Made by a program: the position numbers and the translations under genes
Assembly (NCBI RefSeq): GCF_030611305.1
Contig: NZ_JAUWQB010000009.1
Span: 1-63,606, forward strand
From: Desulfobacula sp.
Lineage (GTDB): Bacteria; Desulfobacterota; Desulfobacteria; Desulfobacterales; Desulfobacteraceae
Direction of reading: 5' to 3'
Length of the DNA stretch: 63,606 nucleotides
The notes under the pieces: generated by a model
Seen by the model: only the letters and a program-made list of their open reading frames with translations
The model's database searches: none
Told to the model about the DNA's origin: nothing
Part shown: positions 26,205 to 56,953 of the stretch, piece after piece
How positions within the stretch are numbered: position 1 is the stretch's first letter
How the letters are laid out: the number at the start of each line of letters is the position of its first letter

Positions 26205-26217
26205 GGGGAATAGTTGC

Positions 26218-27369: not shown

Positions 27370-27413
27370 TGACAAACTTCGATAATATATGAAAAAGAAA
27401 GGAGAAAACTCCC

Positions 27414-27854
27414 ATGATTAAAATACCCGCTAAAGTCTTGATAGTGGATGATGAAAAAGATTTTGTTGAAATGTTTTCCCTCCGGCTGGAAGGACAGGGT
27501 GAAAAAGTATCCACGGCCTACAGTGGTAAGGATGCATTAAAGGTGCTGGAAACGACAATCATTGATGTGGTCATCCTGGATATCAGGATGCCGGGCATGG
27601 ATGGAATTGACACCTTAAAACAGATAAAAAAGCTTTATCCCATTGTTGAAGTCATTTTGTTGACCGGACATGGATCAACGGAAACCGCAGTGGAAGGTAT
27701 GAAACTGGGGGCGTTTGATTACCTGATGAAGCCGGCTGATTTTAAAGATATAAAAGTCAAACTGGAAAATGCCAGGAAACGAAAAGATGAACAGGAAGAA
27801 CGAATCCGCCAGGCTGAAGCCAGGTTTCTTTTAAGAAGAAGCGGAGATGTATAA
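27414..27854 (+). CDS. Single-domain response regulator (REC)
   Basis: 146 residues with AAAGGAG upstream. It shows VDDEK, phosphorylation site VVILDIRMPGMDG, LLTGHGS and YLMKPAD, then a basic helix rich in Arg and Gln. No output domain. It is the probable acceptor for the REC-kinase hybrid ending 44 bases upstream. Confidence 0.92.
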   Translation: MIKIPAKVLIVDDEKDFVEMFSLRLEGQGEKVSTAYSGKDALKVLETTIIDVVILDIRMPGMDGIDTLKQIKKLYPIVEVILLTGHGSTETAVEGMKLGAFDYLMKPADFKDIKVKLENARKRKDEQEERIRQAEARFLLRRSGDV

Positions 27855-27888
27855 AACTCAATATGGTTTAATGCAGGGAGGATATTAA

Positions 27889-28467
27889 ATGAAATCTATT
27901 CTGGTAAAAGATTTAATGGTTTCGCTTTCAGAGTATGCCACTGTTCATGAGGGGGCCACATTATCAGATGCACTGGATGCGCTTGAAAAGGCCCAGGAAC
28001 AATTTGATAAAAGCAAATACCGGCACCGGGCGATTCTTGTGTGTGATAAGAAAACCAACAAGGTTATCGGTAAACTCAGTCAGCTGGATGTGATACGGTC
28101 TTTGGAGCCCAAGTACGAACAGTTTACGGAAGAGAAGGCTTTTCCCCAGATAGGCATGTCCCATTTTGGATTCAGCCCGCAATTTATGAAAGGTATTTTG
28201 GAACAATATGAATTATGGTATGAGCCGGTAAAAGATATATGCGGGAAGGCAGGCAAACAAAAAGTAACAGAGCTCATGCACACCCTGACGCCAGGGGAAT
28301 ATGTCAAAGAAGATGCAAATTTGGGAGTGGCCATCCACCAGCTTATTATGGGGCACCATCAATCTCTTTTGGTAACAAAAGGTGAAGATATTGTCGGAAT
28401 TTTACGATTAACAGATGTTTTCAAAAAAATTTGCATTGATGGAAGAAAAATGCACCAAACCCAATAG
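27889..28467 (+). CDS. CBS-domain pair protein
   Basis: 192 residues, soluble. Two CBS motifs flank a middle segment of about 50 residues: the first begins at VKDLMVSLSEYATVHEG, the second at VTELMHTLTPGEYVKED and runs to VGILRLTDVFKKI. The middle segment (LEPKYEQF, then GFSPQFMKGILEQYELWYE) is shared with the paralogue at 31463-32029 and looks specific to this type. CBS pairs bind adenine nucleotides or similar ligands and control transporters and enzymes. Both copies lie in transporter-signalling clusters, so control of the DASS carrier is a fair inference. Confidence 0.9.
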   Translation: MKSILVKDLMVSLSEYATVHEGATLSDALDALEKAQEQFDKSKYRHRAILVCDKKTNKVIGKLSQLDVIRSLEPKYEQFTEEKAFPQIGMSHFGFSPQFMKGILEQYELWYEPVKDICGKAGKQKVTELMHTLTPGEYVKEDANLGVAIHQLIMGHHQSLLVTKGEDIVGILRLTDVFKKICIDGRKMHQTQ

Positions 28468-29955: not shown

Positions 29956-31380
29956 ATGGATACCGTTTTAGTAATTGATGATGATGACCAATTAAGAAAA
30001 AGTTTTTGCAAGCTTTTAAAAGAGGAAGACTATGCGATTATCAGTGCTGCTTCCGGTGAAGCCGGCATTGAAATTGTTAAACAGAATGTTTTGGATCTGG
30101 TTATTCTGGATTTGCGATTGCCCGGAATAAACGGGATGGAAACATTCAAACGAATCAAGAAAATCGATTCAAAACTGCCGGTCATTATTATAACCGCTTA
30201 TGGTACAACCCAAATTGCCATAGAAGCTACCAAAATGGGGGCCTATGATTATGTCCTCAAACCATTTGATGTGCCGGATATGCTTAATTTAATCGAACAG
30301 GCAATAGAGGCGGGATATTTTATGAGATCGCCGGTTGAAGTGGATGCTGCTCCTGATAAAGAGTCCGGAGATGTGATTATCGGTCAAAGTAAACTCATGC
30401 AGGATGTATACAAATCAATAGGCCGGGTCTCTCAAACCGATGCAACCGTTTTAATACTGGGAGAATCAGGGACTGGAAAAGAATTAGTAGCAAGGGCAGT
30501 CTATCAGCATGGTATTCGTTCGGATAAGGCCTTTTTAATCATTAATTGTGTTGCCATACCTGAAAATCTTCTTGAGAGTGAATTGTTCGGTTATGAAAAA
30601 GGTGCATTTACCGGAGCTTCCCAGCGACATATCGGGAAAATTGAGCAGGCAAACGGCGGTACAGTGTTCTTGGACGAAATCGGGGATATGCCGTTAAATA
30701 TACAGGGCAAAATTTTAAGGTTGTTACAGGAAAAGAAGATTGAAAGGCTGGGAGGTGAAGAAATCATTCCTGTCGATGTTCGAATTATTGCTGCGACAAA
30801 TAAAAAACTGGAACAGGCTATCAAGAATAAAAAATTCCGGGAAGATTTATATTTCCGTTTAAAAGTGGTTGCCATAGAACTTCCTCCATTGAGGGACAGG
30901 CGAGAAGATATCAATAGTCTGATTTCATATTATATGGCTAAATTTTCCAATGAATTAAAGGTTGATAATCCGGGTATTCAAAAAGAAGCTTTAACGCGGT
31001 TAAATCGTTATGACTGGCCCGGAAATATAAGGGAGCTGTCAAATTTGATTCAGAAAGTCCTTATCTTTAACAGAGGGGCGCCAATTTCCATAACAGATCT
31101 GGAACAGGTAATAAATAAAAAAGAAAAAACTAAATTCACTGAAGAGATCAAATTAAATGATATCAAGGAGTGGGTCCGGCAATTATTATCCAAGCCATCT
31201 GAAAATTACCGTTTTGATGATTTTATAGACATGGTTTCAACTATTGTTATCGCCGAAGCTCTGAAAATAACGAACGGAAACCGTTCCCAGGCTGCGAAAC
31301 TCTTAAGCGTCTCAAGACCGACACTTCATGCCAAAATTGACAAATATCATATTAAGCTTAAAACCGAAATATCAGATTAG
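29956..31380 (+). CDS. NtrC-family sigma-54-dependent response regulator
   Basis: 474 residues with three domains. The receiver (1-120) has LVILDLRLPGING and VLKPFD. The AAA+ domain (about 135-370) has Walker A GESGTGKE, the sigma-54 contact loop GAFTGA at 216-221, Walker B TVFLDEIGD and the arginine-finger region FRLKVVAIELPPLRDRRED. The C-terminal Fis-type helix-turn-helix has NRSQAAKLLSVSRPTLHAKI. It is fully equipped to activate sigma-54 promoters, and several such promoters occur in this window. It ends 35 bases before a strong bidirectional terminator. Autoregulation of the operon starting at 21959 is plausible. Confidence 0.95.
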   Translation: MDTVLVIDDDDQLRKSFCKLLKEEDYAIISAASGEAGIEIVKQNVLDLVILDLRLPGINGMETFKRIKKIDSKLPVIIITAYGTTQIAIEATKMGAYDYVLKPFDVPDMLNLIEQAIEAGYFMRSPVEVDAAPDKESGDVIIGQSKLMQDVYKSIGRVSQTDATVLILGESGTGKELVARAVYQHGIRSDKAFLIINCVAIPENLLESELFGYEKGAFTGASQRHIGKIEQANGGTVFLDEIGDMPLNIQGKILRLLQEKKIERLGGEEIIPVDVRIIAATNKKLEQAIKNKKFREDLYFRLKVVAIELPPLRDRREDINSLISYYMAKFSNELKVDNPGIQKEALTRLNRYDWPGNIRELSNLIQKVLIFNRGAPISITDLEQVINKKEKTKFTEEIKLNDIKEWVRQLLSKPSENYRFDDFIDMVSTIVIAEALKITNGNRSQAAKLLSVSRPTLHAKIDKYHIKLKTEISD

Positions 31381-31462: not shown

Positions 31463-32029
31463 TTATTCTTTTACCATCAGGTCACAAATGAGCATGAAAA
31501 TATCTGTAAGTCTTAATATGCCAATCACCTTATTCTGTTTGTTCAATACTATCAAAGACTGGTGGTGGCCCAGGATAAACTGGTGAATTGCCTCTGGAAT
31601 AGAGAGATCTTCGTTAACATATTCGCCTTCCTGGGGAGAATACATTATGTCTTTTACTTTTCTGTTTTTTGCCTTTTTGACAAGAGACTCGCAGCTTTCA
31701 TCCCAGAGATTGTAGTTTTCCACCAGAGAATGTAGGAAATCATCACTCAACCCGAATCTGGACAATCCCATTTTGGAAAGGTGGTCGGAGCTTCCAAACT
31801 GACTGTATTTTGGCTCAAGTGCACGTAAAATATCAAGGGAAGATACTTTTCCGGAAATGTCACCATCTTTATCAAAAACAAGAACCGCCCGGTGTTTGTA
31901 TTTAGACTGATCCGCTGTCTGATGGGAAGCAAGAAGTGTCCTGACAGCTGTTTCAAGAGTATCTTCTTCATTTACGGTAGCATACTCCAGCAAAGGAACC
32001 ATTATCTCTTTGACTTTTATTAATTCCAT
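31463..32029 (-). CDS. CBS-domain pair protein, paralogue of 27889-28467
   Basis: 188 residues from the ATG at 32029, which aligns with the start of the paralogue and has GGGAAG upstream. The longer frame to 32086 would run into the transporter gene. CBS motifs begin at VKEIMVPLLEYATVNEE and VKDIMYSPQEGEYVNED, separated by LEPKYSQF and GLSDDFLHSLVENYNLWDE, matching the middle segment of the other copy. It probably senses an adenine nucleotide and acts on the transporter encoded 24 bases upstream. It ends at the shared terminator. Confidence 0.88.
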   Translation of the reverse strand: MELIKVKEIMVPLLEYATVNEEDTLETAVRTLLASHQTADQSKYKHRAVLVFDKDGDISGKVSSLDILRALEPKYSQFGSSDHLSKMGLSRFGLSDDFLHSLVENYNLWDESCESLVKKAKNRKVKDIMYSPQEGEYVNEDLSIPEAIHQFILGHHQSLIVLNKQNKVIGILRLTDIFMLICDLMVKE

Positions 32030-32052
32030 TTTATTTTCTTCCCTTATTGATG

Positions 32053-33525
32053 TTATAGCATAATCTTCATACCCATGAGAGGCCAAATAACGTAAACGGC
32101 AATACCAGTTATTATCATCAACATAATGCTGGCCGGGATACCATAGCCAAAAAACTCACCGGTGGTGAATTGTTTTGAATCATAGGCTATCGCATTAGGC
32201 GCCGCACCAACCAAAAGCAAGAAGGGCATGCCCGCCACGACAAGGGCTGAGAATGTGATTACATCAGGTCCTACACCGAGATAAGGTCCTATAACCAATG
32301 CAACAGGCAGGACGATGGCAATGGCTGCAACATTCATAATAAAATTGGTCAACATCATAACAAGAAATGACATACTCATTACAAAGACAAACCAGTTGGA
32401 ATCTTTGAACATGCTCAGCCAGTTGATGGCAATCCATTCTGCAGCTCCTGTTTCCCAAAGGCAGAAACCAATACTCATGGCACCGCCAAACAATAAGATA
32501 ATGTTCCATGGAATAGATTCAAGGTCTTTAATGTCCAGAATTCTAATTACAAAAAATAGAACAGTAGATGTCAGGATAATGGCTGACTTGTCAATGGGTT
32601 TTAATATTGCAACATAAGGCCTGATAGACATCAGGAAAATACATACGAAAATGATTGAAGCGGCAATAATTTCATTTTTAGTAATGGATCCCATGGCTTT
32701 GCTGAGTTTTTTTGCTTTCTCCCTTAAGCCCGGAATAGTTCTTTGCTCGGGTTTGAAAAAGATCATAAAAAATCCCCATAATGCAAAGGTCATGAGCCAT
32801 CCAATGGGGAACATGTAAAAGGCCAATTGGAAAAAAGTGATATCCGTGCCCACAAGTTCTTTATAAAAACCCAATGCTACTGCGCCCCGGGCTGCACCCA
32901 GCAGGGTAACGATACTTCCGGCCCCTGCAACATAGGCCATTCCAATGAACAGCCCCTTACCGAATCGGGTGGGTGTCTCAAAGTCATCACTATAGAGTCC
33001 ATAGACGGTGATGAGAAGTGGAAACATGGTTGCGGCAACTGCTGTATGGGCCATGATATGGGTCAAGGCAGCAGTGACCACAAAACAGCCAAGGTATATC
33101 ATGCTGGTTTTTTCACCCACAATGACAAGCATCTTGTAGGCAAGCCGCCGTGTCAGGCCTGTTTTGGTGAATACGATTCCAATCACAAGGGATGCAAAGA
33201 TAAAGACTACCGAAGGATCAAACATCTGTTGGAAGGCGGTTTTGGCAGGCCGGATCAGAAAGACTGCCTGCAAAATTCCCATAAAGAGGCTGGTAACACC
33301 AATGGGAACTACTTCAAAGACCCACCATGTACCCCCTAAAAGAAATACAGCCAGGGCACCTTTTGCCTGCTGGCTCAACACAAAGTGTTTGCCGGCAGGA
33401 TCAATTGCATCCGGCCAGGGTGGGGAAAAGTTGACAACAATAAATAGTATTACACCTATGAGTAAAAATAGGATGCGTTTCCAATCGAATTTTGAGCCGG
33501 TTAAGGCTGCTGTATCAGTGCTCAT
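32053..33525 (-). CDS. DASS/SLC13-type anion transporter
   Basis: 490 residues with about eleven membrane segments, lacking the long extracytoplasmic insert of the copy at 24624. The positions of the two SNT sodium sites read THIMAHTAVAA and TNFIMNVAAIA, again altered. The ending GAAPNAIAYDSKQF is typical of the family. It is separated from the upstream receiver gene by a hairpin (33705-33752) and about 180 bases, so it probably has its own promoter, and it forms a unit with the CBS gene. Likely substrate: a di- or tricarboxylate or sulfate-like anion. Confidence 0.88.
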   Translation of the reverse strand: MSTDTAALTGSKFDWKRILFLLIGVILFIVVNFSPPWPDAIDPAGKHFVLSQQAKGALAVFLLGGTWWVFEVVPIGVTSLFMGILQAVFLIRPAKTAFQQMFDPSVVFIFASLVIGIVFTKTGLTRRLAYKMLVIVGEKTSMIYLGCFVVTAALTHIMAHTAVAATMFPLLITVYGLYSDDFETPTRFGKGLFIGMAYVAGAGSIVTLLGAARGAVALGFYKELVGTDITFFQLAFYMFPIGWLMTFALWGFFMIFFKPEQRTIPGLREKAKKLSKAMGSITKNEIIAASIIFVCIFLMSIRPYVAILKPIDKSAIILTSTVLFFVIRILDIKDLESIPWNIILLFGGAMSIGFCLWETGAAEWIAINWLSMFKDSNWFVFVMSMSFLVMMLTNFIMNVAAIAIVLPVALVIGPYLGVGPDVITFSALVVAGMPFLLLVGAAPNAIAYDSKQFTTGEFFGYGIPASIMLMIITGIAVYVIWPLMGMKIML

Positions 33526-33762: not shown

Positions 33763-34191
33763 TCAGCCACCATGCCGCTGGAGAATATCTTTGATTTTTT
33801 CCTCCATTTGTTTTTCAACAATGAGCATTTTTTCAGTTTTTGCATTTTTAATTTTTTCTGACAGGGCTTCAAGATCTGCCGGTTTTTCAAGAAAATCCGT
33901 GGCACCGATTTTCATGGCTTCAACTGTTTTTTCAACAGTGGCATAACCGGTGAGCAGAATGATTTGCAGCTCGGGCTTTAGATTTTTAATCGCTTTCAAT
34001 GCTTCCATACCATCCATTCCCGGCATTTGAAAATCCATAACAATGGCATCAAAAGACTCTTTTTTTAAAATAGACAGTGCTTTGTCAGCTGAGTCTGTAG
34101 TGGTGACCACCATACCGCGGGCTGTCATCCTCTCGGACATGATCTCCAGAAATTCTTTTTCATCATCCACGAGTAATACTTTTTCCGACAT
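33763..34191 (-). CDS. Single-domain response regulator (REC)
   Basis: 142 residues with AAGGAG seven bases before the ATG. VDDEK, phosphorylation site IVMDFQMPGMDG, LLTGYAT and FLEKPAD are all intact, with a short basic and acidic tail and no output domain. It is the last member of REC-kinase-DHp-only-REC and so the natural terminal receiver of a relay. Confidence 0.92.
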   Translation of the reverse strand: MSEKVLLVDDEKEFLEIMSERMTARGMVVTTTDSADKALSILKKESFDAIVMDFQMPGMDGMEALKAIKNLKPELQIILLTGYATVEKTVEAMKIGATDFLEKPADLEALSEKIKNAKTEKMLIVEKQMEEKIKDILQRHGG

Positions 34192-34227
34192 TATCTTTCT
34201 CCTTATACCGTTGGTGCTTTAGCCAAA

Positions 34228-34902
34228 TCAATTTGGCGTAACTGGGTTCCGTTTTAACAACAAAAGGCCAAAACCGTTATTATCTTTATTCTTTTTAATG
34301 GATATATCTAAGTGTTTCATTAGGGCTCTATCTTCTTTTGATCCAAACAGGTCATCCATTAGATCGTTTTGGACTGCATCCATTGAAAACCAGATTGAGG
34401 GCGTGTCAGCATCAGTTCCGAATGAAATCACCATCTGTTTTTTTTCTTTAGCTGCAAGACAGGCTGTTTCAATGGCTTTCCAGATCATATTTTCCAGATA
34501 AAAAATGTTTGTTTCAACCATTATGCGTGATAATGGGGAGGTTACCTTGATGACAACCCCCTGCATTGCAATGAGCCTGGATGCCAAATCCAGAACAAAA
34601 CTGACTGTTTCTTCAAGATTTGCAATTTGGGTTTTCCTATCAACACCGTGGGAAAATCGGTTTAATTTGCGTACCACTATATCGGCTCGGTTCACCTGTC
34701 TTGTCACCCTTTGTGAGATGTCGTTGACCCGGGCAAGGGAGAGGGGTGGTTTCTTTTCAGCCATCATGGACAGGTCTTCTAAAAGTCCTGCACTTTCATT
34801 GATAATGGCCAGGCAGTTTTTAATTTCATGGGTGGCAGAGGCAGACATTTTGCCAAAAAATCGCATTCCGCTTTTGCTGAGGCCCTCTTTATCATCTACC
34901 AT
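34228..34902 (-). CDS. Soluble DHp-only histidine phosphotransferase-like protein (Spo0B-like)
   Basis: 224 residues with no membrane segment. It begins directly with a DHp helix containing THEIKNCLAI and the phosphorylatable His25. The C-terminal half has the length of an ATPase domain, but the N-box reads ENMIWKAIETA (the magnesium-binding Asn is Lys) and neither a DxGxG G1 box nor a GxGLGL G2 box is present. So it should accept and pass phosphate rather than use ATP, like Spo0B, or act as a phosphatase, since HExKN is compatible with that. It overlaps the upstream kinase by 11 bases. A close architectural twin is at 49779-50495, with its His also at residue 25. Confidence 0.82.
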   Translation of the reverse strand: MVDDKEGLSKSGMRFFGKMSASATHEIKNCLAIINESAGLLEDLSMMAEKKPPLSLARVNDISQRVTRQVNRADIVVRKLNRFSHGVDRKTQIANLEETVSFVLDLASRLIAMQGVVIKVTSPLSRIMVETNIFYLENMIWKAIETACLAAKEKKQMVISFGTDADTPSIWFSMDAVQNDLMDDLFGSKEDRALMKHLDISIKKNKDNNGFGLLLLKRNPVTPN

Positions 34903-36286
34903 TATCAGTACCTGCTGTTATGGGTATTGTCAGGGTAAAACGGGTGCCTTTACCCAGGCTACTTTTTACCATGATATCTCCGCCGATTTCCTTAATCAGT
35001 CCGTAAGTAATAGACAGACCAAGACCCGTACCCCAATGATCGTCTTTAGACGAATAGAAAGGCTCAAAGATCTTATCAATATCTTCAATAGAAATGCCGC
35101 TTCCATTATCGGAAACGGTTATTGTCAATTTATCCTTTTCCTTGAGTTTGATAGAGATAGTGAGCTGCCCACCATCTTCCATTGCAGCAAAGGCATTTTC
35201 AATCAGGTTTAAAAAAATTTGCTGCAGACTGCCTTTATCGCATTCAAAATCTGGAATGACGTCCTGGTTGTCCACAGAGATAGTGATGCTTTGGCGTTCG
35301 GCATCCTTTTTAAGAAAGGCCAGCACCTGTCCGACGACTTCCCCTATATCCACCGGCTCTATGCTGGGCTCCATATGGCGGGCAAAATCCAGCAGCCGCC
35401 GGGTGATGCCCCCGCACCGCGTAACCGCATCAAGAACATCGTTGGCAAGGGGAATCAGCCGATCATCCGAAGAAAAATCTTCTCTCAGTGTAAACAGGTC
35501 CAGAATCAACCCTGTTTTCTGATTGATAATGGCCAGAGGGTTATTGATCTCATGGGCAACACCCGAAGCCAGGCGGCCTATGGATGCAAGTTTTTTTGCA
35601 TATTCGGCATGGCGAAGGGCTTCAGTCCTTTTGCGATCTGTTGAATGGATGCGCCCCACAAGATAGGTTGCCGTACCCATTATGGACAATAAAATCAAAA
35701 CAATGCTGACAGCCAGATACCAGACCAGTTTGAGCCTGGGTTTGAGCCACAGGTCGGTGAGCCACTTTTTGCTCTTGACCAGCACGAATATTAAAGAGGT
35801 GTCCGGTATCCTGGCATACCCTGCAATAACTGGTTTTCCTTTTGGGGTCACATCTTCTTCGATTCCGGAATTCTCGTTGAACAGGTTAACGTTAAAAATA
35901 TCAGAAGTGCCCGGCCTGCCGTAATAAAAGGAGGGGGTCAGCAAAGCACCATCTTCATTGACAACAAATATGTCATTGTCCTCTCCGGCATCAGAGTGGA
36001 CGATATAATCAAGGGCTGATTTTTTTAGATCTTTGGAAAAAGAGATGGAAGCGGCAGCAGAGCTCAGGATTTTTGACATGCTGCTTTCTACCTCATCTTC
36101 GATGATCCGGCGTGTGAGGCTAAAGTCCACAAGGGTCATGACAAAAAGGGGCAAAAGGGCCATAAAGGAGGTAAACAGCACAAGCAGCTTCCACTTCCGC
36201 CGGAAATTAAAAGTAGTGTGCGAATGGCTGCCTGCAATATCCCGGTGGTCCCAGAATGCGGGTTTAAGTTTTTTCAATCGTTTCAT
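34892..36286 (-). CDS. Membrane sensor histidine kinase
   Basis: 464 residues from the ATG at 36286; a GTG nine bases upstream is the alternative. Membrane segments near 35-58 and 196-218 enclose a single Cache-like sensor with NDIFVVNEDGALLTPS. The DHp helix has VAHEINNPL (His245), and the ATPase domain has NLIENA, DNGSG and GTGLGLS. It is complete and should be the phosphate source for the receivers at both ends of this operon, directly or through the DHp-only protein whose gene overlaps its 3' end. Confidence 0.92.
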   Translation of the reverse strand: MKRLKKLKPAFWDHRDIAGSHSHTTFNFRRKWKLLVLFTSFMALLPLFVMTLVDFSLTRRIIEDEVESSMSKILSSAAASISFSKDLKKSALDYIVHSDAGEDNDIFVVNEDGALLTPSFYYGRPGTSDIFNVNLFNENSGIEEDVTPKGKPVIAGYARIPDTSLIFVLVKSKKWLTDLWLKPRLKLVWYLAVSIVLILLSIMGTATYLVGRIHSTDRKRTEALRHAEYAKKLASIGRLASGVAHEINNPLAIINQKTGLILDLFTLREDFSSDDRLIPLANDVLDAVTRCGGITRRLLDFARHMEPSIEPVDIGEVVGQVLAFLKKDAERQSITISVDNQDVIPDFECDKGSLQQIFLNLIENAFAAMEDGGQLTISIKLKEKDKLTITVSDNGSGISIEDIDKIFEPFYSSKDDHWGTGLGLSITYGLIKEIGGDIMVKSSLGKGTRFTLTIPITAGTDNGR

Positions 36287-36328
36287 GAATTTCACTTACG
36301 CATTTAAAAATGTGTTTCACACCGTTGT

Positions 36329-36757
36329 TTATTTACCGGTTTTAATTTTCTCATGTGCTTTTTTCAGGGTCTCACTTAATATGTTGATATTTACCGGTTT
36401 TTGCATATATGCAAAGGCACCCATATCCATGCACTTTTTCCTGTCCTGTCCTGATCCATGACCGGTCAGTACAATCACTTCGATCTCAGACCGGCTCTGT
36501 TTCACTTCTTTTAGGATTTCCATTCCGTCAATCCCGGGCATTTTTAGATCAATGATCATCACTTCCGGGGCATCATTACGAACCAGATCCAGTGCTGATT
36601 TTCCGTCGTATACAATTGCAGTCCCCATATCCCGTATTTGCAAACGTTCTGACAAAGTCAGCACAAATTCTTTTTCATCGTCCACCAAAAGGACTTTAGA
36701 AGGCATCTCTACAGAACTTTTTTTAGAGACATCTAACTTCTGATATACCTGTTTCAT
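36329..36757 (-). CDS. Single-domain response regulator (REC), first gene of relay operon
   Basis: 142 residues with an N-terminal extension of about 17 residues before the receiver. Motifs are VDDEK, MIIDLKMPGIDG, VLTGHGS and YMQKPVN, with a lysine-rich end. A second ATG at 36706 would remove the extension but lacks a better ribosome binding site. The gene order, with this receiver before the kinase, repeats at 52669-53049. Confidence 0.9.
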   Translation of the reverse strand: MKQVYQKLDVSKKSSVEMPSKVLLVDDEKEFVLTLSERLQIRDMGTAIVYDGKSALDLVRNDAPEVMIIDLKMPGIDGMEILKEVKQSRSEIEVIVLTGHGSGQDRKKCMDMGAFAYMQKPVNINILSETLKKAHEKIKTGK

Positions 36758-36846: not shown

Positions 36847-38139
36847 ATGATCGGTCGGATTTTGTCAAATTATTTAAATTCGCTAAAAAAGTCAATGTCA
36901 AACATGAAAAACAAGATACCCGAAAAAGCGAGACTGCTGGAAAAACTTCGTAAAAATGGATTTAAGGTTCCGGATTTTATTTATGTACCGGCAGATCAAT
37001 TCAACAATAATAATTTTACACAACTGGATTCATTTTTAGATAAACATCGTGAAAGTTATAAAGTCATTGCAAGAAGCGCCCATCCTCTGGAATCTGAGTA
37101 TACCGGCGGTACCTTTGATTCTCTTGATACCTATGCAGATATTGGCGGAATAAAATATGCGCGGAATCGAATGATAAAAATAGCTGAGACGTCGAAATGG
37201 CTATCCATCCGCCGGCAGCAGATGTTCAACCATGCACCCCAAATCGATATAAATGAAATGGGTGTCATTGTCATGCCTTTTGTCAATGGTTCCAGCGTCA
37301 TGGCAAAAATGATAGTTAACCACTGGGAATTTGGTTACTGCAGGAACCGTTCACACAAGGTCCAAAACGAACCCCACATCACCAATGTTCCTCATGATCA
37401 CAGGCTGTTAAAACTATCAGAAGATATCCAAAAGGTCCTGGGGTTTAGATGCGAGATCGAGTATATTATTGCAACTGATGGAGAAATCTATGTTGTGCAG
37501 GCCAAGGATATTTCAAATATTGAGACGCTGGAGGAAAAAGAGAGCCAGCATTCCATTAAGCTTGATGGCATCAGGCGCATAAGAAAGCGCAGAAATTACA
37601 GGGAAAGGCCGGTTTATGTAATGGATAACAAGGCCTTTTATATTAACGTCATCAGCCAGTGCGAGGATTTTGTTCCAAAAAACAAAGAATTAAAGCCAGA
37701 TATCAATGGGATTATATCCAGCATAAAGGCATATGAAAAGGAACTTGAATCTTTTGCTTTAAGGCACCAGCGATTTGCTGTTCTGGGGTTTTCCATACAG
37801 GATTCCTCCGAGCTCTACCAGATTGCCAACCATTATCTTGAAGATTTGCCTGATCTTCAGAAAGTCCTGTCAAAAGCCCTTCACACCAATCTTTACAAAA
37901 TTGATATTTTTCTGGCAGAAGCAGATACATTGATTGCAAAGGATAAATTCAGGATCAACCTGTGCAGCCATGACGCCTATGGTATTGATACCGTACGAAA
38001 TCCTCTCTGGTCAGCCTACTGGCATGTCGACCGGCACGATAAGGTGGTCAAGGAATTTATACATCTTGGTTTTAAGACCGGTGATACCATTGGAATTGAT
38101 ATTGATGCTGAAGACCGGCCCATCATTTCCCGGCACTAG
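36847..38139 (+). CDS. Orphan PEP-synthase/PPDK-type ATP-binding domain protein
   Basis: 430 residues; the start is uncertain (ATGs at 36847, 36895 and 36904, none with a good ribosome binding site). Residues about 20-240 resemble the N-terminal ATP-grasp part of pyruvate phosphate dikinase and PEP synthase: VIARSAHPLESEYTGGTFDS and, near 215-235, CEIEYIIATDGEIYVVQAK. The phosphohistidine domain and the PEP/pyruvate barrel are absent, and the last 190 residues are unrecognised. It cannot make PEP alone. It could be an ATP-dependent phosphotransferase acting on another protein or a small molecule. It stands alone between the relay operon and the Ehr operon. Confidence 0.72.
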   Translation: MIGRILSNYLNSLKKSMSNMKNKIPEKARLLEKLRKNGFKVPDFIYVPADQFNNNNFTQLDSFLDKHRESYKVIARSAHPLESEYTGGTFDSLDTYADIGGIKYARNRMIKIAETSKWLSIRRQQMFNHAPQIDINEMGVIVMPFVNGSSVMAKMIVNHWEFGYCRNRSHKVQNEPHITNVPHDHRLLKLSEDIQKVLGFRCEIEYIIATDGEIYVVQAKDISNIETLEEKESQHSIKLDGIRRIRKRRNYRERPVYVMDNKAFYINVISQCEDFVPKNKELKPDINGIISSIKAYEKELESFALRHQRFAVLGFSIQDSSELYQIANHYLEDLPDLQKVLSKALHTNLYKIDIFLAEADTLIAKDKFRINLCSHDAYGIDTVRNPLWSAYWHVDRHDKVVKEFIHLGFKTGDTIGIDIDAEDRPIISRH

Positions 38140-45808: not shown

Positions 45809-46483
45809 ATGGAACTTTCAGTTTTTGATTTGTCAAAACATCTGGGCGTTGCCCCGAATACTATTGAACGCTGGCTACGGCAGGGGAAACTGCCGGTTTC
45901 CCCAAAAGGCGCCAATTATCGGTTTCAAACAAGTGAACTGGAAAAATGGGCATCCAAGCATAATATTAACCTGAAACTTTCGAATAAAGGCATACCTGAA
46001 AAAGAAAGAGAGTCTGTTACCCCTTTATCCGTTGCAGTCAAAAACGGCGGGGTCTATTCTGATATTCAGGCAAATGATGTGAACGGTGTTTTGAAAGCCT
46101 GCCTTGAAAAAATTTCTGATATATCAGATGATTTCAAGGCAGATCTTTTTGATCGTTTGGTTGAAAGGGAAAAGGCACTTTCAACCGGTATTGGAAATGG
46201 AATTGCCATTCCTCATCCCAGGGAGCAATTGAGCTATTTAACCAGCCCTATGGTTTCTGTTTGTTTTTTAGAGCATCCGGTGGACTATAAGGCATTGGAC
46301 AATCAGCCCGTGTCAACCCTGTTTTTTTTATTGAGCCCAACACTTAAAATGCATTTGCATTTATTGTCTGTTTTGTCATTTTGTTTAAGAGACCATCAGT
46401 TTACAAATTTTCTAAAAGCAAGGCCCGATTCGGTTGCGCTGGTTGAAAAAATTGAAACACTTCAGAAAGCAAACTCGATATAG
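45809..46483 (+). CDS. HTH (MerR/excisionase-like) fused to PTS EIIA (PtsN-like) domain
   Basis: 224 residues. The N-terminal 55 residues are a winged-helix excisionase-type motif with LSKHLGVAPNTIERWLRQG. Residues about 75-220 are an EIIA domain of the fructose/nitrogen type; the phosphorylated His is in GIAIPHPREQ. It is therefore a DNA- or partner-binding domain controlled by PTS phosphorylation, similar in idea to PtsN, which regulates potassium handling and stress. No other PTS component occurs in the window. AAGGA precedes the ATG, and the ClC channel gene follows after 26 bases. Confidence 0.9.
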   Translation: MELSVFDLSKHLGVAPNTIERWLRQGKLPVSPKGANYRFQTSELEKWASKHNINLKLSNKGIPEKERESVTPLSVAVKNGGVYSDIQANDVNGVLKACLEKISDISDDFKADLFDRLVEREKALSTGIGNGIAIPHPREQLSYLTSPMVSVCFLEHPVDYKALDNQPVSTLFFLLSPTLKMHLHLLSVLSFCLRDHQFTNFLKARPDSVALVEKIETLQKANSI

Positions 46484-49235: not shown

Positions 49236-49730
49236 TTATTTTTCGGCTTCATCCATTTGGGCCAGTTCCTTTAGTATTCCCAAAGGTGACTGACCAAGTG
49301 CTAATGCCTCAATTTTCTTGATCCTTAACTGATCATGTTCAAATTTCTTTTTCAGTCGCCTTTCATAGGCTTCTTTTATAGCATCAACAAGTTTGTCAAA
49401 CTTACAGGGCTTTTCAAGGATTTTGAAAGCCCCTAATTTTGTACAGTCTACAGCAGATTCGACGGTTGCATGGCCTGACAGAATAAGGACTTCCAGATAT
49501 TTGTGGTTCTTTTTAAGAATTTCAAGTACCTGAGCTCCATCGATCCCAGGCATCTGCAAGTCAATAACAGCAACATCAAACCGTCCTTTTCTTGCTGCCT
49601 CAATGGCATCAACACCATTTGTGGCCGATGTAATTTCGAAAAATTTTAATTTCAGTCGTTTTGTTATTGTTTCTAAGAATTTCACTTCATCATCTACCAT
49701 AAGAAGATGGATCTTGTTATAGTTGGCCAT
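49236..49730 (-). CDS. Single-domain response regulator (REC), last gene of relay operon
   Basis: 164 residues with AAGGAGG upstream. Motifs are VDDEV, phosphorylation site AVIDLQMPGIDG, ILSGHAT and ILEKPCK. A longer helical tail of about 45 residues follows, but no DNA-binding domain. In gene order it corresponds to the receiver at 33763-34191 of the other relay operon. Confidence 0.91.
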   Translation of the reverse strand: MANYNKIHLLMVDDEVKFLETITKRLKLKFFEITSATNGVDAIEAARKGRFDVAVIDLQMPGIDGAQVLEILKKNHKYLEVLILSGHATVESAVDCTKLGAFKILEKPCKFDKLVDAIKEAYERRLKKKFEHDQLRIKKIEALALGQSPLGILKELAQMDEAEK

Positions 49731-49778: not shown

Positions 49779-50495
49779 TCAATCTTGTTTATCGTTTCCA
49801 GTGTATGAGTCGTTTTGTAGTTCTTTTGCCAGTACAATGATTTTATTGCTGACATAGGGAATCCAAATATCGAGTTCATGGGGGGATTCATTTATGTTAA
49901 GTTCCACACCAAGAACATCTACAGTTTTTTGAATTTTTTGTGTTGGAAAACCTTTTAAAGTCAGTTGAGCCGGGCTTGAAAAAATAAGGTGTGCGCCATC
50001 ATTGTTTTTAGAATCAATCCGAATGTGAATGTCTCCATCTGGACCAACTGATTCGTATGTGAATATTAGAATCTGATATATCAGGTTTTGCAGAAGAAAC
50101 GGGCATGTCAAAATAGATTTAGTCTCCTGATCGCTATTGTTGATTTGAACCTTGCTTGCAAAACTTAAAAATCCTGACAAATTTATTGTAAGTTCCAGGG
50201 TTTCGAAAAGATTAATTTCTTTGATTGGGATATCCACACTATGGGCAAATCTGTTCATTTGTTTTATGGTTGTAAATCCGCGTTGAATATCTTCGGCAAT
50301 ACTTGCACTACAGTTTTCAAACATTGACAGTTTAAGATCTTTGCCTTGTTTTGCCAGATCAGTTAAATCATTTAACAAGCCGGATGTTTCAGAGATAATG
50401 GCCAGAATGTTTTTTAATTCATGGGAAATACTTGCATTGACTTTCCCAAAAAATTTAAGCCCCTCGATATTTATAAAATTAATTGTGTCATTCAT
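49779..50495 (-). CDS. Soluble DHp-only histidine phosphotransferase-like protein (Spo0B-like)
   Basis: 238 residues, no membrane segment. It starts with KFFGKVNASISHELKNILAI, with His25 in the same place as in the twin at 34228-34902. The part that should bind ATP reads QNLIYQILIFT at the N-box (Asn to Gln) and has no DxGxG or GTGLGL motif, so ATP binding is not expected. It is bracketed by receiver genes on both sides (50559 and 49236), which is what a phosphate shuttle between two receivers would need. A phosphatase function is the main alternative. Confidence 0.82.
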   Translation of the reverse strand: MNDTINFINIEGLKFFGKVNASISHELKNILAIISETSGLLNDLTDLAKQGKDLKLSMFENCSASIAEDIQRGFTTIKQMNRFAHSVDIPIKEINLFETLELTINLSGFLSFASKVQINNSDQETKSILTCPFLLQNLIYQILIFTYESVGPDGDIHIRIDSKNNDGAHLIFSSPAQLTLKGFPTQKIQKTVDVLGVELNINESPHELDIWIPYVSNKIIVLAKELQNDSYTGNDKQD

Positions 50496-50558: not shown

Positions 50559-50918
50559 TCACAACCCGAGTTTGCCGATCTCGTTCATTCTTTTAATCAG
50601 AATTTCAATATCCAAAGGTTTTGATAAATAAAAATCCTTTTGAATAAGATCTTCATCGGATTTGCTCACTGTTCCGTGCCCGGTCACAAAGATATATTTT
50701 AAGCCGGGGTCCAGAATGCTTAGTTTTTTCTTTAACTGAATACCACTAATACCAGGCATTTTGATATCCAATACAGCAACGTCATAAGCTTTATTGCTAA
50801 CTTTTTTAATGGCATCCTCTCCGCTAAAAACAGCATCTGCTTGAATCCCTCTTAATGCCAGTCTTTTTGCCAGCATGTTGATAAATTTCTTTTCATCATC
50901 AACGAGAATGACTTTCAT
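50559..50918 (-). CDS. Single-domain response regulator (REC)
   Basis: 119 residues from the ATG at 50918, which has AAGGGG upstream and overlaps the kinase stop as ATGA; a frame opening further upstream is inside the kinase gene. Motifs: VDDEK, AVLDIKMPGISG, FVTGHGT and YLSKPLD. It is almost pure receiver domain, like Spo0F, and sits between the kinase and the DHp-only gene. It has no counterpart at this position in the 33763-36757 operon. Confidence 0.91.
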   Translation of the reverse strand: MKVILVDDEKKFINMLAKRLALRGIQADAVFSGEDAIKKVSNKAYDVAVLDIKMPGISGIQLKKKLSILDPGLKYIFVTGHGTVSKSDEDLIQKDFYLSKPLDIEILIKRMNEIGKLGL

Positions 50919-52675
50919 ACTAATTCCCCTTCTTTGATTTTGACGGGCAGGGTAATTGTAAAACAAGTCCCGACACCTTCAGTGCTTTGAACCGATATAT
51001 TCCCACCCAGTTTTTTTACCAGTCCGTAAGTGATGGAAAGCCCGAGTCCGGTTCCCATCTGATCTTGTTTTGTGCTGAAAAATGGCTCATGAATTTTTGC
51101 TAATCTATCTTCAGGGATTCCACATCCGGTATCTTGTATGACAATCTCAATGGTTTTGGTGTCGATTTGAGAACCAATAATATCCAGGCAGCACCCTTCA
51201 TCAACAGCCTGGAAAGCATTGTTGATAAGGTTAACAAGAATTTGTTGGAGTTTGCCGCTGTCCGTTTCCATATCGGGAATCGTATCAGGTATTGAGACTG
51301 TCACGTTGATCCCCCTGTATTCAGCCTCTTTTTTATGAAAACTCAGTACATCGGACACCAATTTTTGTAGATTTATTTTTTTAATTTTAATATCAAATTG
51401 TCTTACAAAACCAAGAAGCTGCTGTGTGATAGTTCCACACCGGTCAACCGCCTCAAGAATGGAATCGATATTTTCAATTATTTCAGCATCACTTCGGGGT
51501 TCATCTTTGAAGCTGTAGAGGTCTTTTACATAACCCGCTGTTTGATTGATAACGGCCAGGGGGTTGTTAATCTCATGGGCAACACCGGCAGCAAGCTGGC
51601 CAATAGAAGCAAGCTGTTGATTCTGTTCCATCTGCAACATGGTTTCGGCTTTTGCTTTGTCTATCAAATAGAGTCTGTTTGTCATAAATGTCGATGCAAA
51701 AGTAATGACAAGAACAATGAGAACCACACTGATACCTACCGTCCAATTAAAATTTCGACGCAATTTAAGCCAGACATGCATCAAACCGGCTTTTTTTTTC
51801 TGTACCACAAGGATGAAAGGGGTATCCACCATGTCTGTTGATATAAACGAATGCCCTAAAATGACCGGGACCTCCTGATAAGTTGCCATGCTCACTTCTG
51901 TAGTTCTTGAATAGTTAAAAATTTTTAAATCTGTTTGGGTAAAGATATTTCCATAATTAGTCGAGGGTGTTTGTAAACTACCTTTATGGTTGACAAGAAA
52001 GATATCGGTATGCTCACCGGTTTTATATGAGGTAAGGGTTTCCATCAAACGCTCTGTATCCAGTGTGGCCCTCAATATAAAAAATGATTTATCGGGTTTG
52101 ATGGATTTGACAGCAATGATAATATGGGGCACATCTCTGTATCCGGTAAATACTTCGCTGATAAAATATTTCTTTTTAAGACTTTGTAAAAACCATGGCT
52201 GACATTTATAATTTTTCCCTTTGATATTAAATGGGCCGGCATAAGCAACCTGAGCACCATCCTCATCAAAAACGCTTAAATCAGAGAAGCCGCCAAATCC
52301 AAGCTTCAAATTTTTTAAAATTTCAGCAAGCATATCATTCTCTGTTAATTGTTCATATCCCATTTCATTGACTGTAAATATCAGAGCATCCAATCGTTCT
52401 TTCATGAAAAAGGTGGTGGATCTTTTTGCATTGGAGGTTAAACGTTCGGTACGAAGGTTCAATTCAGAATCTACAGATTTTTGAATCAGCTGATAGTGTA
52501 TGAGTGTCACGATGCACAACGGAGATAAAGCGGTCACAACTAAGATAAAGATGCTCATGGTCCATAGGTGCCAATAATCCGTAAAGGTGTAAAAAGACTT
52601 CAAATGAACATCCTGTTTGTGTTTTTGAAATTCAGGCCAAATGCTTTTCATGGACGTCAGCATTTTTTTTAACAT
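50915..52675 (-). CDS. dCache sensor histidine kinase
   Basis: 586 residues, with GGAG upstream; the ATG lies inside the end of the preceding receiver gene (overlap ATGTTAA). Membrane segments are near 35-60 and 303-327, around a dCache sensor with YAGPFNIKGKNYKCQPWF and FTGYRDVPHIIIAVK. DHp: VAHEINNPL with His367. ATPase: NLINNA, DTGCG and GTGLGLS. It is the fourth member of the window's sensor lineage and the kinase of the REC-kinase-REC-DHp-REC operon. Confidence 0.93.
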   Translation of the reverse strand: MLKKMLTSMKSIWPEFQKHKQDVHLKSFYTFTDYWHLWTMSIFILVVTALSPLCIVTLIHYQLIQKSVDSELNLRTERLTSNAKRSTTFFMKERLDALIFTVNEMGYEQLTENDMLAEILKNLKLGFGGFSDLSVFDEDGAQVAYAGPFNIKGKNYKCQPWFLQSLKKKYFISEVFTGYRDVPHIIIAVKSIKPDKSFFILRATLDTERLMETLTSYKTGEHTDIFLVNHKGSLQTPSTNYGNIFTQTDLKIFNYSRTTEVSMATYQEVPVILGHSFISTDMVDTPFILVVQKKKAGLMHVWLKLRRNFNWTVGISVVLIVLVITFASTFMTNRLYLIDKAKAETMLQMEQNQQLASIGQLAAGVAHEINNPLAVINQTAGYVKDLYSFKDEPRSDAEIIENIDSILEAVDRCGTITQQLLGFVRQFDIKIKKINLQKLVSDVLSFHKKEAEYRGINVTVSIPDTIPDMETDSGKLQQILVNLINNAFQAVDEGCCLDIIGSQIDTKTIEIVIQDTGCGIPEDRLAKIHEPFFSTKQDQMGTGLGLSITYGLVKKLGGNISVQSTEGVGTCFTITLPVKIKEGELV

Positions 52676-53049
52676 TCGGGTGTCTCCCTGATGTGTTCCA
52701 GAATGGTCATGAGTTTATCAATATCCAGCGGTTTGTGCATAAACTTATAAGCGCCGAGCCGCTCACATTTTTGTTGATCCCGTTCGGTTCCGTGTCCGGT
52801 CAGGATAATAACAGGGATGGCCGGATTGATTTCTTTAATCCTGGTCAATACTTCTGTACCGTACATATCCGGTAATTGAAGGTCAAGCAGAATAAGCGTA
52901 ACAGAATCGACATGTTTTTTAATCCATTGAAGTGCTGTCCTGCCGTCATAGCAGACCTCTGAATGGTACCCACGCAGTTCAGTTCGTTTGGCTAACATGT
53001 CCGCAAACTTTTTTTCATCATCTACAATTAATACATTTCCATGTTCCAT
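52669..53049 (-). CDS. Single-domain response regulator (REC), first gene of relay operon
   Basis: 126 residues; the ribosome binding site is weak. VDDEK, ILLDLQLPDMYG, ILTGHGT and FMHKPLD are present, with no output domain. Like the receiver at 36329-36757 it precedes its kinase gene and has a RDQQKC / QDRKKC-type helix in common with it, suggesting the two operons arose from one ancestor. Confidence 0.9.
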   Translation of the reverse strand: MEHGNVLIVDDEKKFADMLAKRTELRGYHSEVCYDGRTALQWIKKHVDSVTLILLDLQLPDMYGTEVLTRIKEINPAIPVIILTGHGTERDQQKCERLGAYKFMHKPLDIDKLMTILEHIRETPEC

Positions 53050-54673: not shown

Positions 54674-55474
54674 ATGAAAAAAGACAAATTAACGATATTG
54701 CTGGTAGATGACAATGAAAAATTTCTTAACTCCATGGCCCAAAGGGCTAAACTGAGAGAATACAATGTTTTAACAGCGACCAATGGAGAACAGGCATTGG
54801 AGATGGCATCAAAGCAAACCATTCATATCGCAGTGGTTGACCAGCAGATGCCTGGAATGGAAGGACTGGTAGTCATTACCAAACTGAAAGCAATTGCACC
54901 GGATATTAAAACGCTGCTGTTGACAGGTCATGGGGATGAAAAACTAAAAGAGGCAACCCAGGCCCTTAACTCTACATATTTTGATAAAGAGGATATTTCC
55001 GGTTTCTGGGATTTCTTGGCCAATCTTTCTTTGGGAGAAATTAATATTTTGCTGGTGGATGATAACCCTAAGTTTCTTAAAATTTTGGCTGACAGGATAA
55101 AATTAAAAGGCCATGAGCCTTTGACGGCACTGAACGGGAAAGAAGCCCTGGAAATTATGGAAAGCAACCGGATACATCTTGCTATTGTCGATCAGCAAAT
55201 GCCGGATATAGACGGTCTGGTCCTGATTACACAATTGAAAAAGATTGACCCGGCCATAAAGACAATGCTATTGACGGGCCATGGGGATGAGAAACTAAAA
55301 GAGGCAACCCAAGCGCTTAACTCTTCCTATTTTGAAAAAGAGGATATGGGAAGCTTTTGGGGGTTTTTCCGAAAAATTCTTAAAAGTTTAGAAACAACCA
55401 TGGCGGCTGCCGGAATGGCTGAAGGTGGCGATCACGAAGATGCTTTAAAAATAAAAGGTTCCAAAAAAGATTAA
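54674..55474 (+). CDS. Tandem receiver protein (REC-REC)
   Basis: 266 residues: two receivers of about 115 residues each, then a short charged tail. Each has VDDN, a phosphorylation site in VVDQQMPG or IVDQQMPD, and LLTGHGDEKLKEATQALNS followed by YF(D/E)KED. The lysine is kept, but the proline that normally follows it is replaced by Glu in both. The second half of each domain is nearly identical at the DNA level too, pointing to recent duplication or gene conversion. No output domain. The next gene starts immediately after the stop with no gap. Confidence 0.9.
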   Translation: MKKDKLTILLVDDNEKFLNSMAQRAKLREYNVLTATNGEQALEMASKQTIHIAVVDQQMPGMEGLVVITKLKAIAPDIKTLLLTGHGDEKLKEATQALNSTYFDKEDISGFWDFLANLSLGEINILLVDDNPKFLKILADRIKLKGHEPLTALNGKEALEIMESNRIHLAIVDQQMPDIDGLVLITQLKKIDPAIKTMLLTGHGDEKLKEATQALNSSYFEKEDMGSFWGFFRKILKSLETTMAAAGMAEGGDHEDALKIKGSKKD

Positions 55475-56953
55475 ATGATCAATCCCGCAAAAAAAATTCT
55501 GCTTGTAGATGATGAAGAAAGGCTATTGAATTCAATGGCACAACGCTTGGTGTTGATGGGATTTGAGGTTATGAAAGCTTCATCAGGTACAAAAGCTGTT
55601 GAAATAGCTAAGAAAACGCAGATTGATCTGGCAATTGTTGATTTAAAAATGCCTGATATGGATGGGTTAAAAACGATTACCCGGCTAAAAGAGATCATCC
55701 CGGACCTGGAAACAGTCCTTCTGACTGGTTACGGAAGTGAAAAAACTAAACAGAAAACCCAAAATCTTGGTTCCGGGTATTTTGAAAAAGATTCAATGGG
55801 AGATCTCTGGGATTTGATTAAAAAATTTAATACTCAGGGAGATGTGGTTGTCATTAAACCGTCGTCTTCGACATCTTCTTATCAACACAAAAATGACTAT
55901 TTAAAAAAACATTTTAATCCCAGCCAGATTGAAGCTATGAGTGACCCTTTTGAAAAAAGAACTGATCAGAAAATCCCAAAAGGTCATATTGATTCCATTG
56001 GCAGAAGTTTTGGAGATCTACCAAAAATTATCGGGGAAACCCCGGAGATGCAGCGATTGCGGAAAGATATTGAACGGTTGTCCGATCTTGACTGTTCAAT
56101 AATCATCCGGGGAGAAACAGGTACCGGTAAAGAATTAGCTTCCAGGGCCATCCATAAGCTGAGCTATCGAAAAGACCAACGATTCCTGGCATTCAACTGC
56201 GGTTGTTTCAGCAATGATTTTCATTTTAATGAACTCTTGGGTTCCTTAGAGGAATCTGCATCCCATTTCGGCTCTAAAAAAAAAGGAACGGAGGGAAAGG
56301 GTTTCGTCGGAACGATCCTGTTGGATTATTTTGAAACTATACCCAGTAAAACACAACAAGAAATGACGAAAATAATTGATAAGAAGGCTATGACTCGTTT
56401 GACTGATACGGCTGATGTGTCAATGGATATTCGTTTTATTGTTGCTACTCATCAAGATCTTAAGAAAAAAGTTGAACAAGGAAAATTTAATGAGGATTTA
56501 TATCACAAACTAAATGCTATTGAGATGGCAGTGCCTTCTTTGCGGGAACGCAGGGATGATATTTTCCCGCTATGCAGTTATTTTTTGAGTAAATTAAATA
56601 TCGAATTTGAAAAGAATATCGAATTTTTTTCAGATGAAGTGTTTTCCATATTTTTGTCCTATCCTTTTCCTGGTAATGTTCGTGAGTTGAAACACATCAT
56701 CGAAAGAGCCGTGATACTGGCAGACAGCAAAACCATAGAACTTGTACATCTTCCTGAACGGCTCAGAAAAAAAGTATCCACTTTCCGTTCAATTGAAAGC
56801 AAACCGCTTTTTACCCTTAAGGAAATGGAACAAAACCATATCATCAAAGCAATCAAATTCACCAAGGGCAACAAGTCAAAAACTGCCGAGCTTTTAGGTA
56901 TAAGCCGTGCAGCTCTATGGAGAAAACTCAAGCATATCAACGCTGAAAGATAA
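55475..56953 (+). CDS. NtrC-like regulator with degenerate AAA+ domain
   Basis: 492 residues: receiver (AIVDLKMPDMDG; YFEKDS with Asp in place of the usual Pro), AAA+ and Fis-type helix-turn-helix. Walker A GETGTGKE is intact at 213-220. The Walker B segment reads TILLDYFE, so Tyr285 replaces the catalytic Glu, and the place of GAFTGA (about 253-270) has EESASHFGSKK. The helix-turn-helix NKSKTAELLGISRAALWRKL is well conserved. It should bind DNA and perhaps ATP but not remodel sigma-54, similar in principle to TyrR- or HupR-type members. Its receiver most resembles those of the tandem receiver gene just before it. Confidence 0.92.
   Translation: MINPAKKILLVDDEERLLNSMAQRLVLMGFEVMKASSGTKAVEIAKKTQIDLAIVDLKMPDMDGLKTITRLKEIIPDLETVLLTGYGSEKTKQKTQNLGSGYFEKDSMGDLWDLIKKFNTQGDVVVIKPSSSTSSYQHKNDYLKKHFNPSQIEAMSDPFEKRTDQKIPKGHIDSIGRSFGDLPKIIGETPEMQRLRKDIERLSDLDCSIIIRGETGTGKELASRAIHKLSYRKDQRFLAFNCGCFSNDFHFNELLGSLEESASHFGSKKKGTEGKGFVGTILLDYFETIPSKTQQEMTKIIDKKAMTRLTDTADVSMDIRFIVATHQDLKKKVEQGKFNEDLYHKLNAIEMAVPSLRERRDDIFPLCSYFLSKLNIEFEKNIEFFSDEVFSIFLSYPFPGNVRELKHIIERAVILADSKTIELVHLPERLRKKVSTFRSIESKPLFTLKEMEQNHIIKAIKFTKGNKSKTAELLGISRAALWRKLKHINAER

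Follow-up and report, generated by a model that had tools for sequence, protein, structure and literature searches.

A stretch of 63,606 nucleotides from Desulfobacula sp. (contig NZ_JAUWQB010000009.1; hereafter the window) carries a minus-strand operon, 36757-33763, whose genes encode in this order a stand-alone receiver (REC), a histidine kinase, a 224-residue protein here termed DHO, and a second stand-alone receiver. We conclude, with a probability of roughly 0.68, that DHO is an independently evolved, HisKA-derived histidine phosphotransferase which works like Spo0B, ChpT and PhyT, phosphate passing from the kinase to a receiver, then to His25 of DHO and on to another receiver. This reading draws on gene order, an invariant histidine, erased ATP-site motifs, a predicted fold, a docking face common to the module receivers and the position of DHO in a single clade. 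A sequence-only reading of the window had proposed a relay of the Spo0B type for this operon; the underlying observation is real, and it extends beyond the operon to a second module in the window and to 121 distinct relatives.

Acceptor histidine, ATP site and fold of DHO

All four open reading frames were found on the minus strand where they had been placed, and Pfam backs the receiver, the kinase and the second receiver. The 224-residue protein with His25 does lie between a full kinase and a free receiver, with the other receiver opening the operon. For this DHO, Pfam returned a sub-threshold HisKA match (expect value, E, 0.0094), two unrelated weak matches and no HATPase match, while NCBIfam gave weak matches to parts of kinase models (E 7.8e-6 to 0.007), far under the cut-offs. 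The loss of the ATP-site Asn and of both glycine boxes, read earlier from the letters, was borne out by a 288-row alignment, in which T146 stands in the Asn column, M174 in that of the G1 Asp, and a gap replaces the G2 segment. A smaller 8-row alignment places the GFGLLL of this protein against the G2 box; since the AlphaFold model puts these residues in the last strand (210-215), the 288-row alignment was preferred.

The relatives came from 149 loci, which yielded 148 DHO open reading frames, 121 of them distinct (117 clusters at 90% identity). Because some organisms are represented twice in the 149 loci, final counts were made on the 121 distinct sequences; per-column counts use all 148 DHO and 140 kinases, and neighbour counts were not deduplicated. 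Frames matching our own kinase-domain or REC profiles, frames outside 150-320 residues and low-scoring frames were excluded before counting; left out in this way were the fusion in locus L131, a 136-residue fragment in L143 and two weak frames in L121. DHO alignments were made with 78 and 54 of the sequences then known. For loci L070-L149, contigs were scanned with the pattern [KQ]NxLAI[IM][NSK]E[NTS] and the best 80 of 242 loci were used; residues in the pattern are conserved by construction in these loci, and the histidine lies outside it.

The histidine is kept in all 121 distinct DHO and in 10 of 10 further sequences (L131 and L240-L248). Counting from this residue, all 148 DHO have an acidic residue at H+1, Asn at H+4, Glu at H+11, Gly at H+14 and Asp at H+18. 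Position H+3 is Lys (140) or Gln (8) in DHO and Asn in 140 of 140 partner kinases. Pro at H+5 occurs in none of the 148 DHO, and 140 of 141 partner kinases match H[ED][IVL]xNP, which was the search motif, so that the kinase counts for this Pro and for Asn H+4 arise by construction. Among the distinct DHO not chosen by the scan pattern, H+3, H+4 and H+11 are conserved in 49 of 49; the ten further sequences all have the acidic H+1 and Asn H+4 and lack the Pro. At the end of the second helix, H85 and D88 are found in 69 of 70 DHO.

The ATP site tells a different story in the two proteins. The N-box Asn is present in 139/140 partner kinases versus 12/148 DHO, the G1 Asp in 140/140 partner kinases, with no dominant residue at this column in DHO, and at the G2 segment of the 288-row alignment every DHO (148/148) has a gap. 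In Pfam, 73 of 78 DHO members matched HisKA at E<=0.1, some under the cut-off, and no HATPase family appeared in the tally of these 78, a set pre-filtered against our own kinase-domain profile. Judged by these motifs, DHO has the acceptor-histidine helix of a HisKA kinase and lacks the N, G1 and G2 boxes of its ATP-binding domain.

AlphaFold monomer models of the two window DHO (mean predicted local distance difference test scores of 92.9 for the first and 91.1 for the second) show a long hairpin of two helices and, after it, a seven-stranded alpha/beta domain, with one or two short helices at the position of the kinase lid. For each model, the best 50 Foldseek matches are to DHp-CA cores of kinases, some within larger proteins; they extend over nearly the full length and include HK853, RetS, DivL and KinB. 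TM-scores by query length were 0.38 to 0.61, which probably results from a different setting of the two domains. A sequence profile built from the 78 members aligns with kinase cores of the PDB (best 3a0r, E 2.3e-9) as far as about position 178 of 220. The models suggest that DHO retains a shrunken kinase-type DHp/CA fold, in which the DHp hairpin and a CA-type domain with an altered ATP lid correspond to a trait of ChpT. The earlier label 'DHp-only' is inexact in this respect, as the C-terminal half, strongly divergent among DHO, is modelled with confidence as a shrunken CA-type domain.

In a tree of 53 DHO and 57 kinase rows, all DHO fall on one side of a branch with a support (SH-aLRT) of 99, and the DHO/kinase label changes once, compared with a mean of about 37 after shuffling. 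One group of seven loci appears on both the DHO and the kinase side, a pattern that joint inheritance of kinase and DHO would produce. That DHO is a truncated or frameshifted kinase was rejected on the grounds that frames are intact in nearly all matches and that DHO form one clade apart from the kinases; a few DHO frames carry one in-frame stop at their end. The proposed origin of DHO is a HisKA kinase of Desulfobacterota that lost its ATP site.

Gene order and receivers among relatives

Within the family of the organism, 79 of 86 genomes match DHO at E<=1e-10, and in 78 of 86 a matching frame is at most 387 residues long (listing read by hand). In a sample of the phylum, matches at E<=1e-20 were obtained in 118 of 394 genomes, many of these matches being kinases; counted by hand, at least 75 of the 394 carry a match that lies in a frame no longer than 360 residues. 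The best 80 of the 242 scanned loci belong to Desulfobacterota lineages or are assigned just to Deltaproteobacteria or Proteobacteria. Most DHO are about 215-270 residues long. A search for the gene order, which the sequence-only reading had suggested, showed that gene and order recur in the 121 distinct relatives far beyond chance.

Three receiver classes are distinguished: RECa, which opens the window operons, RECb, which lies between kinase and DHO where present, and RECc, which follows DHO in the window modules. Among 87 distinct loci with enough flank, a kinase is found at 85 (it is missing at L039 and for one DHO of L059), RECa at 81, RECb at 56, RECc at 82 and two or more receivers at 84; the five DHO without RECc are at L058, L059, L064, L096 and L114. 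The co-encoding of a kinase (85/87), at least two receivers (84/87) and a histidine protein that is not a kinase agrees, in gene content, with a two-component phosphorelay of the general kind. In many relatives RECa is fused behind a Cytidylate_kin2 domain (CK-REC), an N-terminal part that the window RECa genes do not have. With duplicates kept, the commonest complete orders are CK-REC, kinase, REC, DHO, REC (31); CK-REC, kinase, DHO, REC (17); REC, kinase, DHO, REC, the type of the first window module (15); REC, kinase, REC, DHO, REC, the type of the second (11); and kinase, REC, DHO, CK-REC, REC (7); kinase, DHO, REC was found 32 times in short loci. Nine further divergent loci from the phylum search all have kinase, REC and DHO followed by REC (9/9). 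A single protein of 344 residues in L131 ('Candidatus Desulfobia pelagia') joins RECb to DHO; Pfam finds REC in it above and HisKA slightly under the cut-off. Examples of CK-REC (L031:8742-9956, L049:6719-7954 and L059:10235-11455) have 404-411 residues with PF13189 and a C-terminal RECa; their middle part looks BON-like by eye and has no Pfam match.

The acidic pair, Asp, Thr and Lys of the active site are kept in at least 91% of rows in the three module REC classes, and the RECa of the first module retains D/D/D/T/K. The C-terminal tail of RECc is partly conserved, with a length of 142 residues in 88 of 138 relatives. The first helix of the module receivers follows the majority pattern DE-x-[EDK]-[FLY]-x-x-x-[LM]-[SA]-E-R, from which we defined a docking face, [FLY] at D2+4 together with Arg at D2+11. 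This face is present in 95 of 95 readable RECa (of 97), 66 of 66 RECb and 111 of 111 RECc, that is, in 272/272 readable distinct module receivers. The rule was tried on 40 and finally on 79 receivers from outside the window, of which 77 were readable and one (L207, G000:C96:850-1350) has the face. Within the window, 12 receivers carry it, five in the two modules and seven outside them between 23701 and 56953 (one assigned by eye); those at 6114-6563 and 29956-31380 do not.

Taking D2+4 and D2+11 to be L14 and N21 of RR468, and Glu36 of DHO (H+11) to be A271 of HK853, numbering that we assume, these are positions named as rewired in the titles of structures among the matches listed. This correspondence makes a docking pair between Glu36 of DHO and the receiver Arg plausible. 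The expected DHO-REC contact positions are nearly invariant. Other receiver faces are specific to each class, with LTGHGSxxD in RECa and LTGYAT in the window RECc, as would be expected of receivers with a common donor and separate targets.

The proposed relay and its alternatives

A dead kinase that keeps its acceptor histidine and recurs in many sulfate-reducing bacteria, encoded between a live kinase and two or three receivers, probably passes phosphate among them. In the relay that we propose, the membrane kinase would autophosphorylate and then phosphorylate a stand-alone receiver, RECb where present and otherwise RECa. His25 would take the phosphate from that receiver through a DHp dimer of DHO, which may hand it to another module receiver, whether RECc, the CK-fused RECa or a sigma-54 regulator encoded nearby. 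Of these, RECc probably exerts its effect through contact with another protein, a plausible target being the DASS-type transporter next to it or the CBS partner of that transporter. The dimer, the phosphotransfer, its direction, the donor and acceptor receivers and the output are what we infer from the data above.

By sequence, DHO stands outside the phosphotransferase families compared here. None of the 78 members matched at E<=0.1 the Pfam families of Spo0B (which we take to be SPOB_a / SPOB_ab) or ChpT (presumably HPTransfase) or canonical Hpt (PF01627), all 21 matching families having been tallied, and membership of DHO in these three groups was rejected. The tally also holds no HisKA_2/HWE-type family, the type to which we assume the PhyT/PhyK group to belong. 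The genome has no free-standing Hpt: its three Hpt matches lie in frames of at least 729 residues, none on the contig of the window. A literature search in a limited library found no description of the DHO family.

DHO nevertheless probably works like these proteins. Spo0B, of the sporulation phosphorelay in Bacillus and Clostridia, is described as a kinase-derived phosphotransferase between a stand-alone receiver and a regulator (PMC6136694, PMC3433190), and DHO shares with it the DHp histidine, a degenerate C-terminal domain and kinase ancestry, as far as these accounts go. It differs from Spo0B in phylum and gene context, being encoded beside its own kinase and receivers. ChpT of Caulobacter is reported to have a four-helix bundle and an atypical Bergerat domain with a replaced ATP lid, and no nucleotide in crystals (PMC3433190); the predicted DHO fold suggests the same kind of change. 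Unlike ChpT, which serves CckA and the regulator CtrA, DHO has free receivers of one operon as its partners. In the alphaproteobacterial stress response, PhyT with SdrG and PhyK/LovK with MrrA are described as kinase-derived proteins that are fed by a single-domain receiver and pass phosphate on to another regulator (PMC5898713, PMC5964349), as is proposed here for DHO. PhyT, however, is described as membrane-bound with an HRxxN motif (PMC5898713), whereas DHO is small and of the HisKA type. In Ypd1, a true phosphotransferase, the Lys at H+3 (K67) is reported to contact its receiver (PMC6341664).

Several observations weigh against the relay. The missing sequence match to Spo0B is one, and neither Spo0B nor ChpT is among the best 50 Foldseek matches of either DHO model. 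Lys at H+3 is also found in ordinary kinases such as NtrB. The conservation of H+3, H+4 and H+11 in L070-L149 is partly the work of the scan pattern, and the ten further DHO include exceptions: L240 has Arg at H+3, L242 has Gln at H+11, and L241, L243 and L245 depart from the common residues at H+14 and H+18. The docking-face rule was chosen after inspection of the module receivers and loosened to [FLY] because Phe occurs in only 26 of 66 RECb; the module receivers share ancestry, the face could serve the kinase alone, and the seven window receivers outside the modules carry it as well. The earlier proposal of a Spo0B-like relay thus gains from the invariant histidine, the erased ATP site, the lasting kinase and receiver partners, the shared docking face and the REC-DHO fusion, and loses from the absent Spo0B match and from a motif that points to phosphatase activity.

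This motif, an acidic H+1 with Asn at H+4 (E/D-x-x-N), is linked to receiver phosphatase activity in HisKA kinases. Since 148/148 DHO keep both residues, the sequences are consistent with a phosphatase or phosphate sink as well, and we regard phosphatase activity as the main rival to the relay, albeit an unlikely one: DHO would be a dedicated receiver phosphatase or sink that switches the module off through E-x-x-N or through His25 and hydrolysis. A pure phosphatase would not strictly need the histidine kept in 121/121 sequences, the partner kinase already has the E-x-x-N motif, and shuttling is a better fit for two or three receiver classes that share a docking face. The retained kinase-core fold is in keeping with a phosphatase, as is the description of LovK, which passes phosphate from MrrA to LovR and then acts as a LovR~P phosphatase (PMC5964349).

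It is more improbable still that DHO is a subunit of the adjacent kinase, forming mixed DHp dimers or being phosphorylated by the kinase CA domain and so tuning kinase output. The homology of the first DHO to its partner kinase (27% identity over 144 columns), the frequent overlap or abutment of the two genes and the seven-locus group in both tree halves would agree with this, but a receiver gene separates kinase and DHO in the 56 loci with RECb, and L131 fuses DHO to REC rather than to a kinase. A decaying kinase remnant without function, which the divergent C-terminal half might suggest, is hardly credible in view of the nearly always intact frames, the confident predicted fold, and the invariant histidine in a conserved helix across distinct sequences from many families.

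Window context and anion transport

The window holds a second, divergent copy of the module that the sequence-only reading had missed, with five genes on the minus strand (53049-49236) in the order REC, kinase, REC, DHO, REC. The two window DHO are 34% identical over 133 residues. The 3.57-Mb genome matches the first DHO at nine places (E<=0.01): two are the DHO themselves, and the other seven fall in open frames of at least 378 residues. The features are listed in the table.

Table. Features of the two modules and their neighbours in the window
Feature	Position	Strand	Evidence
RECa, stand-alone receiver at start of first operon	36329..36757	-	PF00072 E 2.9e-26
Partner histidine kinase, HisKA with HEINNP box and intact HATPase_c	34892..36295	-	Pfam
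First DHO, 224 residues, His25 in THEIKNCLAII	34228..34902	-	Pfam, alignment, AlphaFold
RECc, stand-alone receiver	33763..34191	-	PF00072 E 3.2e-31
DASS-type symporter (PF00939), downstream of RECc	32053..33525	-	Pfam
CBS-pair protein, downstream of DASS gene	31463..32086	-	Pfam
Second module, RECa-type receiver	52669..53049	-	Pfam, docking face
Second module, HisKA-HATPase_c kinase, sub-threshold dCache match	50915..52675	-	Pfam
Second module, RECb receiver, gene overlapping kinase gene	50559..50966	-	Pfam, docking face
Second DHO, 238 residues, SHELKNILAII	49779..50495	-	Pfam, AlphaFold
Second module, RECc-type receiver	49236..49730	-	Pfam, docking face
Tandem-receiver protein, first receiver with module docking face, second by eye from translation	54674..55474	+	
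Sigma-54 activator, REC-AAA+-HTH_8, receiver with module docking face	55475..56953	+	Pfam, docking face

The first-module kinase gene has a GTG start and an 11-bp overlap with the next gene; its membrane segments were judged by eye. The first operon itself encodes no DNA-binding output, as had been noted, but the sigma-54 activator with the docking face adjoins the second module and is a candidate DNA-binding output for it. Similar regulators are neighbours in some relatives, and at L058 and L059 a related one adjoins the module on the same strand. The earlier wording of a complete relay with no DNA-binding output was too strong, given the sigma-54 regulators that flank some modules and the CK-fused receivers of many relatives. 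Candidate outputs are the RECc beside the transporter, CK-REC and the sigma-54 activator; an output limited to the first operon was set aside in favour of these neighbours, including the DASS/CBS pair and the docking-face receivers. Possible, though doubtful, is a wider scheme in which the window is a relay island: two DHO with one docking face would share phosphate among several kinases and the 12 receivers, and a many-to-many network, acting mainly through contacts between proteins and not through DNA binding, would govern transporters of sulfate or other anions (two DASS-type, one TSUP-type).

Neighbours were counted in loci of 9 kb or longer, with 83 instances of the module. Relatives of the DASS gene were found at 30 of these instances, of the first CBS protein at 19, and of a 430-residue protein encoded divergently from the first module (36847-38139, plus strand), which has no Pfam match at E<=0.001, at 18. 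EIIA-, ClC- and Usp-like genes had relatives at 9, 9 and 8 and the TauE-type (TSUP) gene at 5, while about one third of the instances had none of the tested window genes. The EIIA/ClC/Usp-like trio, which follows the module in several relatives, lies in the window at 45809-49088 (plus strand), as an HTH_17-PTS EIIA_2 fusion by Pfam, a ClC-like channel and a Usp-like gene, the latter two named by eye; Pfam gave no match for the Usp-like gene.

The DASS and TSUP families are described as including putative sulfate transporters of sulfate reducers, TSUP function not being predictable from sequence (PMC5840216). For Desulfobacteraceae, clusters of DASS/SulP genes with two-component systems, Cache kinases, response regulators and CBS proteins have been reported, and sulfate-sensing Cache kinases were proposed to act through 'WalR type' regulators on promoters (PMC11887813). 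The window modules resemble these clusters, as there described, in the DASS transporter, Cache kinases, response regulators and CBS proteins, but differ in that the receivers mostly stand alone and a phosphotransferase candidate is present. The main text of that paper does not contain the words 'phosphorelay' and 'receiver', and no mention of a degenerate kinase or relay was found there (PMC11887813). The DHO module perhaps controls the uptake of sulfate or another anion.

Three further regions of the window were recorded. A third cluster, free of DHO (21959-28467, plus strand), contains a dCache kinase, receivers and a REC-kinase, its four REC domains carrying the docking face, together with second DASS-like and CBS-like genes named by eye. 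At 13-1746 (plus strand) lies a kinase-like protein, a mirror image of DHO, whose H-box ARGVFSDLNDIL has Ser aligned with the phospho-acceptor His; it has a HATPase_c match, N-, G1- and G2-like boxes and a sub-threshold dCache match, and no HisKA match at E<=0.01. The next gene (1743-4109, plus strand) encodes 788 residues with, by eye from the translation, an acetyltransferase-like and a histone-deacetylase-like part.

If the relay reading is right, a further kinase-derived phosphotransferase evolved in sulfate reducers, with Spo0B, ChpT and PhyT/PhyK as precedents elsewhere, and kinase, receivers and phosphotransferase would form a widely inherited module within one operon. Such a module would provide a clean natural system for the change from kinase to phosphotransferase. 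It would also revise the model, as set out in PMC11887813, of kinases that signal directly to promoter-binding regulators, and would open the control of anion uptake, putatively that of sulfate, in marine sulfate reducers to direct tests.

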